Positions 5,090-38,366 of a stretch of DNA of 64,000 nucleotides are shown piece after piece; within the stretch, counting starts at the first letter, position 1, and the number at the start of each line of letters is the position of its first letter. The stretch covers positions 310,001 to 374,000 of the forward strand of contig NZ_SDPU01000020.1 of assembly GCF_004168035.1 (NCBI RefSeq), in the 5' to 3' direction. Below the pieces are notes generated by a model that had not been told where the DNA came from, did no database searches, and saw only the letters and a list, made by a program, of their open reading frames with translations. Both the position numbers and the translations under genes were made by a program. This DNA is from Nocardioides iriomotensis (lineage in GTDB: Bacteria > Actinomycetota > Actinomycetes > Propionibacteriales > Nocardioidaceae).

Positions 5090-6004
5090 TCACGCAGCCA
5101 CGTCGGGGCCGGCCGCCTTGCGCCGGAAGGGGCCCCGGTGCACCCGCGCCTCGCCACTCGGTGAGGTCACGTATGCGTGACCGATGATCGCGCAGACGGT
5201 GACGATGAGCGCGAACCCGATCAGCCAGGAGGCGACCGTGAGGAACAGGCCCAGCGCACCGAACTGGGCGATGCTGCCGACGACGTAGCGGGGCATCCAC
5301 AGGTCGGACGTGAGGCTGTAGACCGCCGTGGTGACGCCGGTCAGCACCGCCGCCGGCGCGGTCATCGCCCAGCGGACGCGCCCCACGAGCAGCATGTGGG
5401 CCGACCACCACCACACCAGGGTGGCCGTCGTGCCCTGGGTCACCAGCTGCAGCAGAGGTGCGCCGAGCACGCGGTCGAGGATCCGCTCCAGCAGCGAGCT
5501 CATCTGAAGGACCGACAACCATCCGGCGAACCACAGCAGGCCGCGCAGGCGCATCAGCAGTCCGCTCTGGTGGGGCAGCCGCCACACGTGCTCGAGCATC
5601 CGTTGGATGGCTCCGGCGAAGCTGGTCACCGACAGGAGCGCGATGACGAGACCGACCCACCCGGTGGCCTCGCGGACCGCGTCCGAGCTCAGGGTTGTCC
5701 GGACGACCGGTGCGGCGTCCATCCCGGTCGCCGCTTCGAAACGGGCGACGATGACGTCGGCCAGCTCGGGCGGGAGGAACGCCACCAGCACGATCAGCAG
5801 CGGGACGAGGCCCAGCAACGCCTGGGCGGCGATGACCACGGAGCGGTCGAAGACCTCGACGGAGGCCAGGTCGGTCAGGAACCTGTGCAGGCCCGGGATC
5901 TTGTCGGCCAGGTGCTCGGTCCACTCCACCAGCCGACGAGTGAGGGACCGCTGCGGTGTGCGGTCCCCGTCCTGTCCGCGCGTTCGACTCGGTGCCTCGG
6001 CCAC
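5090..6004 (-). CDS. YihY/virulence factor BrkB family membrane protein
   Basis: Polytopic inner-membrane protein of the YihY/BrkB family (once mislabelled RNase BN), about 304 residues from the GTG at 6004. The conserved start LADKIPGLHRFLTDLASVEV is followed by about six helices, including SVVIAAQALLGLVPLLIVLV. The frame is open up to a GTG at 6085, but that codon lies inside the island palindrome, so the true start is probably downstream; GTG 6004 is one candidate and GTG 5932 (before EWTEHL) another. It is convergent with the phosphatase-like gene with an 18-bp gap. The transported or bound partner is unknown. Confidence 0.85.
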   Translation of the reverse strand: MAEAPSRTRGQDGDRTPQRSLTRRLVEWTEHLADKIPGLHRFLTDLASVEVFDRSVVIAAQALLGLVPLLIVLVAFLPPELADVIVARFEAATGMDAAPVVRTTLSSDAVREATGWVGLVIALLSVTSFAGAIQRMLEHVWRLPHQSGLLMRLRGLLWFAGWLSVLQMSSLLERILDRVLGAPLLQLVTQGTTATLVWWWSAHMLLVGRVRWAMTAPAAVLTGVTTAVYSLTSDLWMPRYVVGSIAQFGALGLFLTVASWLIGFALIVTVCAIIGHAYVTSPSGEARVHRGPFRRKAAGPDVAA

Positions 6005-35133: not shown

Positions 35134-35150
35134 TTGCGGAAATTTGACAC
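35134..35150 (-). promoter_or_regulatory. GTCAA box A at the XRE-TPR promoter
   Basis: On the minus strand GTCAAATT (35141-35148) with a partial second half towards 35134; on the plus strand it reads TTTGACAC and contains the -35-like TTGACA (35144-35149). It matches the first eight bases of box C at 38337. Probable autoregulation site of the regulator starting at 35173. Confidence 0.45.
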
Positions 35151-35172: not shown

Positions 35173-36528
35173 GTGGACCCGCGTCAGGCCGACCTGCTGC
35201 AGGTGATCGACCCTGCCCTGCTGGGCCGTCGCGTGCGCGCGGCCCGGCGCGCCGGTGGGCTCACCCAGAGCCAGCTCGGCGGCGACGACGTGACCGTCAG
35301 CTACATCTCGCGCATCGAGTCCGGCCAGCGCCGGCCCGACGGCCGGGTGCTGGTCAAGCTGGCCGACCGGCTCGGGATCCCGGTCGACTCGCTGCTCGCA
35401 GACCCCGGCGACGACCACGAGGCCGCCCTGAGGATCGAGGTCGACTTCGCCGAGCTGTCGCTGGAGACCGGCGAGCCGCAGGCCGCCCTCGAGCGCCTCG
35501 ACGTGGCCCTCTCCGAGCGCCTCGACGGGGCGCCCCGTGAGCTGTCGCAGCGCGCACGGGTCCTCCGCGCCCGCGCCCTCGAGACTGTCGGGGACATCGA
35601 CACGGCCGTGGCCGCCTGGGAGGGGCTGCTGGCCGAGGACCCGCACGGCACCCACGCGCTGGCCTGCGGCATCGCGCTCAGCCGGTGCCACCGCGAGGCC
35701 GGTGACCTGGGTCGCGCGATCTCCGTCGGCGAGGACCTCCTCCGTGGCCTCGAGGACCGCGACCTGGGCGGCGGCGACGAGGCCGTGCAGCTCACCGTCA
35801 CGGTCGCCGCGGCGTACTTCCAGCGCGGCGACACGCACCACGCAGTGCGACTCTGCAAGCAGGCGATCGTAGCGGCCGAGGTGACTGGGTCCCCGCGTGC
35901 TCGTGCGTCGGCCTACTGGAACGCCAGCATGATGGAGCACGAGCAAGGGATGGTCGCGGCGGCCGTTCCGCTGGCGGAGAAGGCGCTGGCTTTGCTCGGC
36001 GAGAGCCGCGACTCCCGCAACCTCGCCCGGCTCCGCTCGCAGCTCGGCATCATGCAGATGCAGCTCGACCCGCCAGCGCTGGCCGAGGCCTCCCGCAACC
36101 TGCACGACGCCGAGACGGCCATGACCGAGTCGAGCGCGAGCGTCGTCGACGTGGTGCGCAACCGCGTGGCCATCGCTCGCGCGCAGCTGATGGGCGGCGA
36201 AACCCGCGAGGCACGCGAGACCGCGCATCGGAGCTACGAGGAGACCAGGGAGCTCGCGCCTGTGCTGGCCGCCGACGCGCTGACGCTCGAAGGTCAGGCG
36301 GCCGCGGCCGAGGGAGACACAGAGCATGCGCGCACCCTCTACAAGGAGGCCGTGCTCATGCTCACGGGGGTCGGCGCCGACCGCGACGCCGGTCAAATGT
36401 GGCTCGAGCTCGGAGCGCTTCTCGAGTCGGTCGGCGAGGTCGAGGCCTCCCGCGACGCCTACCGCAGCGCGGCGGTCGCCGCCGGGCTGCACGCGCGACA
36501 CACCGTGCGCAGCCACGCTCTGCGCTGA
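35173..36528 (+). CDS. XRE-TPR regulator of RRNPP-like architecture
   Basis: Cytosolic regulator of 451 residues from GTG 35173. The N-terminal XRE helix-turn-helix has LLGRRVRAARRAGGLTQSQL, VSYISRIESGQRRPDGRVL and LADRLGIPVDSLLA within residues 15-75. The remaining 370 residues are TPR-type helical hairpins (ALERLDVALSERL, AVAAWEGLLAEDPHGTHAL, AVRLCKQAIVAAEVTGSPRA, ARTLYKEAVLMLTGVGADRD). This order and length match the RRNPP peptide receptors (Rgg, NprR, PlcR). A secreted small peptide gene lies two genes away and GTCAA boxes are shared, which supports a peptide-sensing role. The frame is open to a TTG at 35134, but those residues precede the HTH and overlap the promoter. Confidence 0.85.
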   Translation: MDPRQADLLQVIDPALLGRRVRAARRAGGLTQSQLGGDDVTVSYISRIESGQRRPDGRVLVKLADRLGIPVDSLLADPGDDHEAALRIEVDFAELSLETGEPQAALERLDVALSERLDGAPRELSQRARVLRARALETVGDIDTAVAAWEGLLAEDPHGTHALACGIALSRCHREAGDLGRAISVGEDLLRGLEDRDLGGGDEAVQLTVTVAAAYFQRGDTHHAVRLCKQAIVAAEVTGSPRARASAYWNASMMEHEQGMVAAAVPLAEKALALLGESRDSRNLARLRSQLGIMQMQLDPPALAEASRNLHDAETAMTESSASVVDVVRNRVAIARAQLMGGETREARETAHRSYEETRELAPVLAADALTLEGQAAAAEGDTEHARTLYKEAVLMLTGVGADRDAGQMWLELGALLESVGEVEASRDAYRSAAVAAGLHARHTVRSHALR

Positions 36529-36588
36529 CTCTCGGCCGCCGCCGTTCACACCCGTACGCCTGGCTGTACGACTTTGCCGCGTTCTCCT

Positions 36589-36623
36589 GTCAAGTACGTC
36601 CGAACTGTGTCAAAATGAGTCAA
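36589..36623. promoter_or_regulatory. GTCAA box B, upstream of the EAL gene
   Basis: Three GTCAA units at 36589, 36609 and 36619, spaced 20 and 10 bp, i.e. on one helix face. The last two form GTCAAAATGAGTCAA, which differs from box C by one base. It lies 114 bp before ATG 36737, in the 208-bp gap following the XRE-TPR gene; I see nothing else in that gap. Confidence 0.55.
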
Positions 36624-36736
36624 CTCCGGTTGGGTTCGCCCTCCCGGAGGGCAGGACGCTCGGGCGGGGGTAGGTCATGCCGGGCGGCAGCGCCCGGACT
36701 GGACGCAGGGCCGGAACGCGTGAGAGGGGGCCACCG

Positions 36737-38098
36737 ATGACGCACCGTGGCTCGCTGCTCGGGCTCGCGCTGGTCGACGCCGGCGTGCTCACCCTCGTCG
36801 CCCTGCCTGTGCTCGCCGGCCTGCTCGTCCGGGACTCCGTCGGCACCGCCTCCTGGGTCGTCATCGCCGCCTGGGCCGCCCTCGCGCTGACGGCCGGGCT
36901 GGCCCTGGTCCGGCGCGAGCACCGGGCGCGAGGCGACCTGGCGGCGCGGGACGCCGCGCTCGCCGCCACCCGGCTCACCGGGCACGACTGGGTCTGGGAG
37001 TGCGACGAGCGGCTGGTCGTCACCGACAGCGGCCACGCCGTGTCACAGCTGCTGGGGTTCGGCCCCGAGCAGTGCGTCGGCCGGCACCTCGACGAGCTCC
37101 TGTACGACGACACCAACCGCACCCATGTCCGCACGCAGCTCGAGGCCGCCGTGTCCCCCGGCGCCCCCTCCGCCCCCCGCGGCCTCGAGCTGGCGTGGCG
37201 GCACGCCGACGGCCAGCCGGTCCGGCTGCGCGGGTCGGCGGCGCCGCTCCACGACCGCCGGGGCAGGGTCGTCGGCTACCGCGGCGCCTGCTGGCGCGCA
37301 TCGGAGCCGACCGAGGCCGCCCTGGTGACCGAAGCGGCCGCGCGACGCGTCACGAGTCTCCTGGGTGGGAGCGTGCGTGTCGACGTGGCCCTGCAGCCGA
37401 TCGTCGAGGTCGGCTCCGGTCGCCTGATCGGGGCGGAGGCCCTGTCCCGGTTCTCGGACGGACGACCGCCGACGGCGTGGTTCGACGACGCGCGCGTCGG
37501 CGGGCTCACCCGCCAGCTCGACGAGATGACCTTCCTCAACGCGCTGTCGGCGTTCGACGACCTGCCCGGTCCGGCGTTCCTCTCCGTCAACGCCAGCCCC
37601 GAGCTCCTGCTCGACGCGGGGTTCCGCAATCGCGTGCTGCGCAGCGGCCGGCCTCTCGACCGGCTCGTCGTCGAGGTGACGGAGCACTCCCAGGTCGTCG
37701 ACTACGACGACCTCGAGGCGGCGCTCACGACGCTGCGCCGGCGCGGCGTCCGGTTCGCCGTCGACGACACCGGCGCTGGGTACTCCTCGCTCAACCACGT
37801 GCTGCGGCTTCGCCCCGACGTGATCAAGCTCGACCGCGACCTGATCGCTGACCTCGGCCACGACGGGGCGCGGCGTGCGCTGGTCACCGCCCTGGTGCTG
37901 CTCGCCCTCGAGGTCGGCGCGTCCGTGACCGGTGAGGGCGTCGAGACGCCCGACCAGCTCGAGGCGCTCGGGGCCCTGGGCGTGCACCACGCCCAGGGCT
38001 ACCTGCTCGCCACGCCCTCGACCGACACCGCGGCCTGGGAAGCGTGGTCGCGTCGCACCTGGCGGCAGGGCACCCACGCCCCGGCCGCCGGACGCTGA
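36737..38098 (+). CDS. Membrane PAS-EAL c-di-GMP phosphodiesterase
   Basis: Protein of 453 residues. Two N-terminal helices (about 5-31 and 38-58), a PAS domain (about 80-190), then an EAL domain that hydrolyses cyclic di-GMP to pGpG. EAL at 234-236, NASPELL near 286, VTEHS near 314, DDTGAG (343-348), Lys364 and GEGVET near 395 are all kept, so it should be active. No GGDEF domain is present. ATG 36737 has GAGAGGGGG at 7 nt; ATG 36677 is in frame but lies before it. Convergent with the small peptide gene. Confidence 0.88.
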   Translation: MTHRGSLLGLALVDAGVLTLVALPVLAGLLVRDSVGTASWVVIAAWAALALTAGLALVRREHRARGDLAARDAALAATRLTGHDWVWECDERLVVTDSGHAVSQLLGFGPEQCVGRHLDELLYDDTNRTHVRTQLEAAVSPGAPSAPRGLELAWRHADGQPVRLRGSAAPLHDRRGRVVGYRGACWRASEPTEAALVTEAAARRVTSLLGGSVRVDVALQPIVEVGSGRLIGAEALSRFSDGRPPTAWFDDARVGGLTRQLDEMTFLNALSAFDDLPGPAFLSVNASPELLLDAGFRNRVLRSGRPLDRLVVEVTEHSQVVDYDDLEAALTTLRRRGVRFAVDDTGAGYSSLNHVLRLRPDVIKLDRDLIADLGHDGARRALVTALVLLALEVGASVTGEGVETPDQLEALGALGVHHAQGYLLATPSTDTAAWEAWSRRTWRQGTHAPAAGR

Positions 38099-38111
38099 CG
38101 GCGACCCACCC

Positions 38112-38136
38112 GGGAGGCGCCCGGCGGACGCCTCCC
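38112..38136. terminator. Hairpin between EAL and peptide genes
   Basis: GGGAGGCG and CGCCTCCC, an 8-bp perfect stem with a 9-nt loop, between convergent stops at 38098 and 38151. Confidence 0.65.
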
Positions 38137-38150
38137 CGTTCCGGTTGGCG

Positions 38151-38288
38151 TCAGCAGCACCAGTGACCGTCGCGAGCCACGACGACGGTGTTCGACGACT
38201 CCCCCGGTGCGGCGGAAGTGGTGCTGGCGGCGCCCAGGGTGACGACGGCGGCGAGGGTGGCGACGAGAGCGGTGATGACGCGGACCAT
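38151..38288 (-). CDS. Small secreted peptide (45 aa) with C-terminal Trp-Cys-Cys
   Basis: A gene too short for usual calling. It starts MVRVITALVATLAAVV, a Sec signal peptide core, with a probable cleavage at TTSA-APGE (about residue 26/27). The remaining 19 residues run to ARDGHWCC at the C-terminus. AGAGG lies 7 nt before the ATG. Its promoter region carries box C. Length, signal and position next to an XRE-TPR receptor and an EAL gene resemble the Phr/PapR-type pro-peptides, whose mature signal is the extreme C-terminus; a short DGHWCC-type signal is therefore plausible. No homologue is known to me. Confidence 0.6.
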   Translation of the reverse strand: MVRVITALVATLAAVVTLGAASTTSAAPGESSNTVVVARDGHWCC

Positions 38289-38336: not shown

Positions 38337-38366
38337 GTCAAATTGAGTCAAGTCGGTCGTGGTCAA
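38337..38366. promoter_or_regulatory. GTCAA box C, upstream of the secreted peptide
   Basis: GTCAA units at 38337, 38347 and 38362. The first two form GTCAAATTGAGTCAA, one mismatch from box B. It lies about 50 bp before the peptide ATG at 38288 (minus strand), where it reads as repeated TTGAC. The rest of the gap 38289-38469 shows no gene. Confidence 0.55.

Follow-up and report, generated by a model that had tools for sequence, protein, structure and literature searches.

A putative RRNPP-like receptor/pro-peptide cassette in Nocardioides iriomotensis and the recurrence of its regulator-peptide pair in actinomycetes

Does an actinobacterium use a gene-encoded peptide to signal to an intracellular receptor, as the RRNPP systems of Firmicutes such as Bacillus and Streptococcus do? 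The question is raised by three genes of Nocardioides iriomotensis (assembly GCF_004168035.1, contig NZ_SDPU01000020.1, positions 310,001-374,000, forward strand; this stretch of 64,000 nucleotides is called the window and lies within contig C13 of the host genome G000, 4.71 Mb in 47 contigs). A sequence-only reading had described a regulator with helix-turn-helix (HTH) and tetratricopeptide repeat (TPR) domains, an EAL phosphodiesterase and a 45-aa peptide gene as one unit, and coordinates and Pfam domains bear this out. Conservation, gene order, boxes and co-variation give good support to its core idea of an actinobacterial receptor/pro-peptide cassette with RRNPP layout, and an RRNPP-like, autoregulated signalling cassette is the interpretation we lean towards. 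The elements are, in window coordinates:

35134 to 35148, plus strand: box TTGCGGAAATTTGAC, 24 bp before the regulator start
35173 to 36528, plus strand: XRE HTH + TPR regulator of 451 aa (Pfam HTH_3, TPR), the proposed intracellular peptide receptor
35809 to 35976, plus strand: central TPR segment of the regulator (residues 213-268), candidate peptide-specificity region with the strongest correlation to peptide residues -6 to -3
36609 to 36623, minus strand: box TTGACTCATTTTGAC, upstream of the EAL gene
36737 to 38098, plus strand: PAS-EAL protein (Pfam), predicted cyclic di-GMP (c-di-GMP) phosphodiesterase, proposed target gene
38151 to 38288, minus strand: gene of the 45-aa pro-peptide, convergent to the EAL gene; signal peptide, ends HWCC
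38337 to 38351, minus strand: box TTGACTCAATTTGAC, 48 bp before the peptide start

The regulator has a GTG start at 35173, backed by orthologue alignment (MDxRQA N-terminus), and a stop at 36528; HTH_3 covers its residues 21-73 and Pfam TPR matches (TPR_12 and others) extend from about 128 to 394. The peptide gene was found where the sequence-only reading had placed a signal-peptide ORF (open reading frame) ending in WCC. It encodes a basic start and a hydrophobic stretch, followed by a Ser-Ala / Ala-Pro junction that would suit signal peptidase I, and the predicted mature part, about 19 residues long, has His-Trp-Cys-Cys at its end. The peptide occurs once in the genome (the next match has an E value of 0.35), and the genome holds one regulator of this kind and one such peptide. 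The two are 1623 bp apart because the EAL gene sits between them.

The pairing of regulator and peptide is conserved in the family. We searched 294 Nocardioidaceae genomes for the regulator at E 1e-30 and took loci for the listed places, several of which share one region; a search with a regulator model gave 141 homologues in 123 loci (1106 kb). In these loci we looked for ORFs 28-75 codons long whose products have a basic N-terminus, contain a hydrophobic stretch and carry CC among their six C-terminal residues; 16 loci were left out, namely superseded smaller copies, parts of the window and the non-orthologues L002, L003 and L040. The scan returned 119 CC signal-peptide ORFs, compared with five in the same DNA reversed. 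Of the 119, 116 overlap a regulator homologue or are at most 800 bp away from one; the window's peptide is the 117th and two are unrelated. A CC peptide is present for 104 of the 141 homologues, and thus the conserved peptide beside orthologous regulators, on which the sequence-only reading depended, is there. The RRNPP(A) arrangement of a conserved pro-peptide gene adjoining the receptor gene is likewise found, in the window with the EAL gene in between. There are 101 distinct nearest peptides: 84 (including the window's) are 3' and convergent, seven divergent, five upstream on the same strand and five overlap the regulator; 77 of the 84 convergent ones are at most 100 bp away. The C-terminal ends of the 101 are WCC (57), GCC (15) or YCC (5) and varied in the rest, and Trp, which was no search criterion, directly precedes CC in 59. 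The five that end in CCR, CCRR or CCK are encoded upstream on the same strand and belong to a divergent regulator clade of about 33% identity (L134-L138).

Two kinds of duplication were seen in these loci. Two or three tandem peptide genes accompany one regulator in L026, L031, L033, L036, L061, L069, L077 and L105; some of the copies are identical, others differ in the mature part. In L051, L053, L047 and L124, two to four regulator paralogues stand in tandem, with a CC peptide at one array end in three of the four loci and none found in L124.

The peptides resemble exported pro-peptides. A small-x-Ala site follows the hydrophobic stretch at residues 20-35 in 108 of 110 distinct peptides. The ratio of non-synonymous to synonymous changes (dN/dS) over 97 pairs is 0.53 for the signal part, 0.55 for the linker and 0.34 for the last eight residues; the CC criterion contributes to the low last value. 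RRNPP(A) pro-peptides have an export signal and a C-terminal part that is conserved, and both are seen here, with the reservation that the scan selected for a hydrophobic stretch and for CC. Only weak chance matches were obtained with Pfam (the window's peptide and six others) and with NCBIfam (the window's peptide and seven others). An XRE regulator near a small hydrophobic ORF could also be a toxin-antitoxin or bacteriocin-immunity pair, in which the XRE repressor holds down a small hydrophobic toxin, and there is some similarity to an antitoxin model, for the HTH only and below the cut-off of the model. However, the hydrophobic stretch ends at a signal peptidase-like site, the C-terminus is the most constrained part of the peptide and the regulator carries a long TPR domain, and we consider such a pair highly improbable.

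Boxes stand before all three genes of the cassette. The consensus TTGMSKMAWTTTGAC at up to one mismatch is found at exactly the three cassette promoters in the whole 4.7-Mb genome (control: 0), so that all three genes do share a box, as had been claimed; a scan of the window at up to two mismatches gives three matches versus 0.15 expected, but as the pattern was written from these three sites, only the genome uniqueness counts as evidence. An earlier, differently written pattern matched the EAL and peptide boxes and one other place in the genome, with one control match. A sigma-70 reading of the boxes was weighed by eye only and rejected. In the family, about half of the peptide genes (57 of 116) have an upstream TTGMC-N5-TTGMC that matches at 9-10 of the 10 fixed positions (10/10 in 31, 9/10 in 26), compared with 2 of 116 in reversed sequence (0 and 2); the non-matchers include proximal copies of tandem peptides. 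The stricter 15-base TTGMCYNARYTTKMC was searched in 20 genomes, including that of the window, and found at 15 places in 14 genomes (controls: 2); 14 of these places lie upstream of a peptide gene. The exception, at C11:264928-264942 of genome G241 (L287), is a box-like site away from the regulator and a possible further target. Where the strict box is seen, it looks as if the peptide gene is the main target, joined here by the regulator and the EAL gene.

Such an autoregulatory box layout, together with the single regulator and single peptide of the genome, could also serve self-sensing: the peptide would meet the regulator in or at the producing cell and report on export or processing, or act as a timer, with no transfer between cells. 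Such roles have been argued for Rap-Phr. The signal-like N-terminus with its small-x-Ala site points to export though, and proteins suited to import are present: the genome encodes seven oligopeptide-binding proteins (PF00496), which are common. To us, self-sensing is decidedly unlikely.

The sequences suggest receptor-peptide co-variation that involves the TPR domain more than the HTH. Distances between the four residues before CC (-6 to -3) correlate with those of the TPR domain (r 0.64) and of the HTH (0.47); in partial Mantel tests on 103 of the 104 pairs, the value is 0.49 for TPR given HTH and -0.06 for HTH given TPR. Partial values for the linker are 0.15 (TPR) and 0.03 (HTH), and the signal part correlates with both domains (0.24 and 0.14). 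With equal numbers of columns (66 random TPR versus 66 HTH), the peptide end gives 0.42 versus 0.06. The co-variation peaks at about receptor residues 214-268, around a conserved Tyr-Trp-Asn (248-250). Where the peptide has Trp at -3 (61 pairs), receptor position 213 is without exception Ala (52) or Ser (9); among the 18 pairs with Gly at -3, position 213 is Leu, Trp, Met, Asp, Gln or Asn in 17 and Gly in one. When residues 205-260 are excluded from tree building, 4-6 (mean 5.5) of 7 independent pairs show Gly at -3 changing together with a larger residue at 213, and none shows the opposite (median p 0.031).

This tracking of the TPR over the HTH domain would not be needed by a pure effector, that is, a secreted Cys-Cys peptide with antimicrobial, metal-binding or redox activity, whose TPR regulator senses something else and which is kept with it by regulation; the estimated mature parts (median about 13 residues, quantiles 5 to 27) are also very short for that role. 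An effector would fit with the near restriction of the strict box to peptide promoters in the 20 genomes and with the tandem peptide copies of several loci, which suit product dosage, and vicinal cysteines are generally known to suit metal or disulphide chemistry. Taking both sides together, we regard an effector as unlikely and continue with the RRNPP-like interpretation.

The predicted fold of the regulator fits an RRNPP-like receptor without proving it. The structure alignment had 43 rows (without L183, L185, L200, L202, L203, L204, L206, L207 and L209), and the AlphaFold2 model consists of an HTH followed by a TPR superhelix (pLDDT 90.3, pTM 0.73), so that, by Pfam and by model, the N-terminal HTH and C-terminal TPR of an RRNPP(A) receptor are in place. 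In a Foldseek search with this model, PlcR with PapR and DNA ranks sixth (E 3.5e-7), and structural Z scores are 24.2 for RapI, 23.1 for NprR and 23-24 for Rap with competence and sporulation factor.

The regulator-peptide pair recurs across many actinomycetes, as judged from the sequences of loci outside Nocardioidaceae. At order level (E 1e-50) the listed matches (44 of 293 genomes) are all within Nocardioidaceae; at class level, 66 of 393 genomes match the regulator. The class-level loci examined were the best hits, 22 of them outside the family, and 20 regions hand-picked from the remaining hits, of which L299, a repeat of L268, was left out. A CC-ended peptide is present in 18 of the 22 loci, with one large family that has a divergent peptide ending in MCC, YCC or TCC, and in 7 of the 19 hand-picked ones; we did not count the doubtful L308 or the two ORFs of L293 and L295, which are 632-643 bp away. 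Seventeen named records from outside Nocardioidaceae overlap these class-level loci (L190/L251 and L187/L252 have the same peptides). Five have a CC-ended peptide: Frankiaceae/Frankiales (two), Propionibacteriales, Streptosporangiaceae-labelled and Actinomycetota metagenome-assembled genomes (MAGs). In three Streptomyces records, 6 to 10 further residues come after the CC.

Regulator homologues of 30-34% identity are also found on 15 plasmid records (14 Streptomyces, one Nonomuraea); of three such loci examined, one (L242) has a CC peptide and two have none. The L242 peptide, at 5476-5691 of a Streptomyces plasmid locus, is annotated as a 71-aa hypothetical protein and ends in PLCC, with the regulator upstream and a BTAD-domain regulator after it. 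A further homologue, 49.7% identical, lies at the end of MT836207.1 (L245), an unverified, unannotated phage scaffold from human faeces that may be a bacterial contig.

The EAL gene is the most local part of the cassette. It starts with ATG at 36737 and stops at 38098, within a longer ORF from 36677; PAS and EAL domains both exceed the Pfam cut-offs (EAL E=6.7e-49). The EAL signature residues are seen by eye in the translation of 36737-38098, so the enzyme is probably active. The EAL phosphodiesterase domain of the sequence-only reading is present; that the protein is a membrane protein was read by eye from its hydrophobic N-terminus and not computed. A tRNA-Val called by ARAGORN inside the gene (37694-37771) has no Rfam support and is probably false. 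No close orthologue of the EAL protein was found beside a regulator; its closest relatives are two proteins of its own genome (49% and 38%) and one in G172 (43%). The two PAS-EAL paralogues of the own genome are at C47:53765-55105 (L321) and C28:15820-17106. Among the EAL relatives, L321 and L312 have no exact box and no signal-peptide-like CC ORF. EAL homologues occur in four locus rows: L103, L041 and L144 (one contig) and L190. A PAS-GGDEF-EAL gene of L103 (1631-3925, minus strand) is divergent to and adjoins a regulator that has a CC peptide of its own, which makes another, perhaps accidental, connection to c-di-GMP genes; in L041 the EAL gene is behind another gene and in L190 it is more than 2 kb away. 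TTGMC-N5-TTGMC (up to one mismatch) was not found close before the EAL genes of L103 and L041. As such proteins are common, we judge, without a formal test, that these neighbours are chance-like. The c-di-GMP output looks special to this genome, a local wiring, and the step from cell density to c-di-GMP that was proposed earlier rests on this one genome.

Several observations weigh against an RRNPP-like signalling system. The regulator has homologues at E 1e-30 in only 100 of the 294 Nocardioidaceae genomes, and 37 of the 141 homologues have no such peptide, including L041 (same genus, 55% identical), L042 and L043; these peptide-less homologues include partial genes, contig ends and members of tandem arrays. 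No peptide within 800 bp was found in 9 of the 17 named records from outside the family (Nonomuraea, Bailinhaonella, Kitasatospora, Actinorhabdospora and another Streptosporangiaceae MAG). The constancy of CC is by construction, as CC was a search criterion. Column 213, the top-ranked of 411 columns for Gly at -3, was picked post hoc, and Trp at -3 is not specific to the TPR domain on the tree: three of the first four columns are in the HTH. The strict box is rarely seen beyond the peptide promoter and is absent from 6 of the 20 genomes, and no wider regulon is visible. The TPR fold is generic: non-signalling TPR proteins match better, with LGN (Z 27.5) above Rap and NprR. EAL is not a conserved partner, and only a few larger EAL proteins are near other regulator loci.

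Under the signalling interpretation, the product of the small gene would be a pro-peptide that leaves the cell through the Sec pathway; signal peptidase would cut it and release a short peptide with the C-terminus Trp-Cys-Cys-COOH. An oligopeptide permease would return this peptide, or a C-terminal fragment of it, into the cell, where it would bind the central TPR groove of the HTH-TPR protein. Binding would alter the action of the protein at the TTGMC-N5-TTGMC boxes before the peptide and regulator genes and, in this genome, the box control would extend to the c-di-GMP phosphodiesterase gene. We infer export, import, binding, a response to cell density and an effect on c-di-GMP; as to the sign of regulation, the peptide gene itself would probably be activated. 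With its vicinal cysteines, the signal may depend on redox state or metals. Chances are about even that the pair represents an undescribed, actinomycete-wide class of intracellular peptide signalling, with Cys-Cys pheromones, lock-and-key coevolution (Ala/Ser at 213 with Trp, larger residues with Gly) and EAL wiring here. If true, the phylum would have a peptide language of its own, in Nocardioides, Frankiaceae, some Streptomyces and other families, and in this genome a gene-encoded peptide signal would be tied to c-di-GMP. Short peptides can be synthesised, and the signalling is therefore directly testable.

A literature search, which left out preprints and most subscription journals, found no report of such a receptor-peptide pair in actinobacteria. 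In the sections of PMC10075063 available, quorum signals of Actinomycetota are typically enzyme-made small molecules. As far as the available text of PMC9765709 and PMC10075063 goes, two RRNPP surveys worked on Firmicutes, which may be why an actinobacterial system was missed.

Among actinobacterial TPR proteins, the FxSxx-COOH TPR protein (NF040586) and the NsdA-family TPR regulator (NF053720) were compared with the regulator, and both models match it weakly and partially (25.9 bits against a cut-off of 300 and 17.8 against 75, respectively). The FxSxx-COOH TPR protein is likewise tied to a small peptide. The ArpA receptor of Streptomyces belongs to the TetR family. It is, like the proposed receptor, an intracellular receptor that steers transcription in an actinobacterium, but its ligand is a diffusible gamma-butyrolactone and not a gene-encoded peptide (excerpts of PMC4748050).

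The likeness to the RRNPP(A) systems PlcR-PapR, NprR-NprX, ComR-ComS, Rgg-SHP, AimR-AimP and Rap-Phr is in an HTH-TPR receptor beside a small pro-peptide gene (Rap proteins have no HTH), in the export signal and constrained C-terminal part of the pro-peptide and in the shared boxes; the overall predicted fold, a generic TPR one, is similar to PlcR, NprR and Rap, with LGN scoring above Rap and NprR. The one subfamily model compared, AimR (NF038310), gave 15.1 bits against a cut-off of 70; the cassette is therefore placed with the RRNPP kind by its probable mode of action and not as a proven member. It differs from the RRNPP(A) systems of Firmicutes in its weak sequence similarity to the solved members (compared with ComR, Rgg, PlcR, NprR and Rap, there is a match to ComR 5fd4 with E=0.0032, over residues 16-142 only), in belonging to Actinomycetota, in a peptide that ends in Cys-Cys, in a gene order that is usually convergent and in its TTGMC-N5-TTGMC direct-repeat box.

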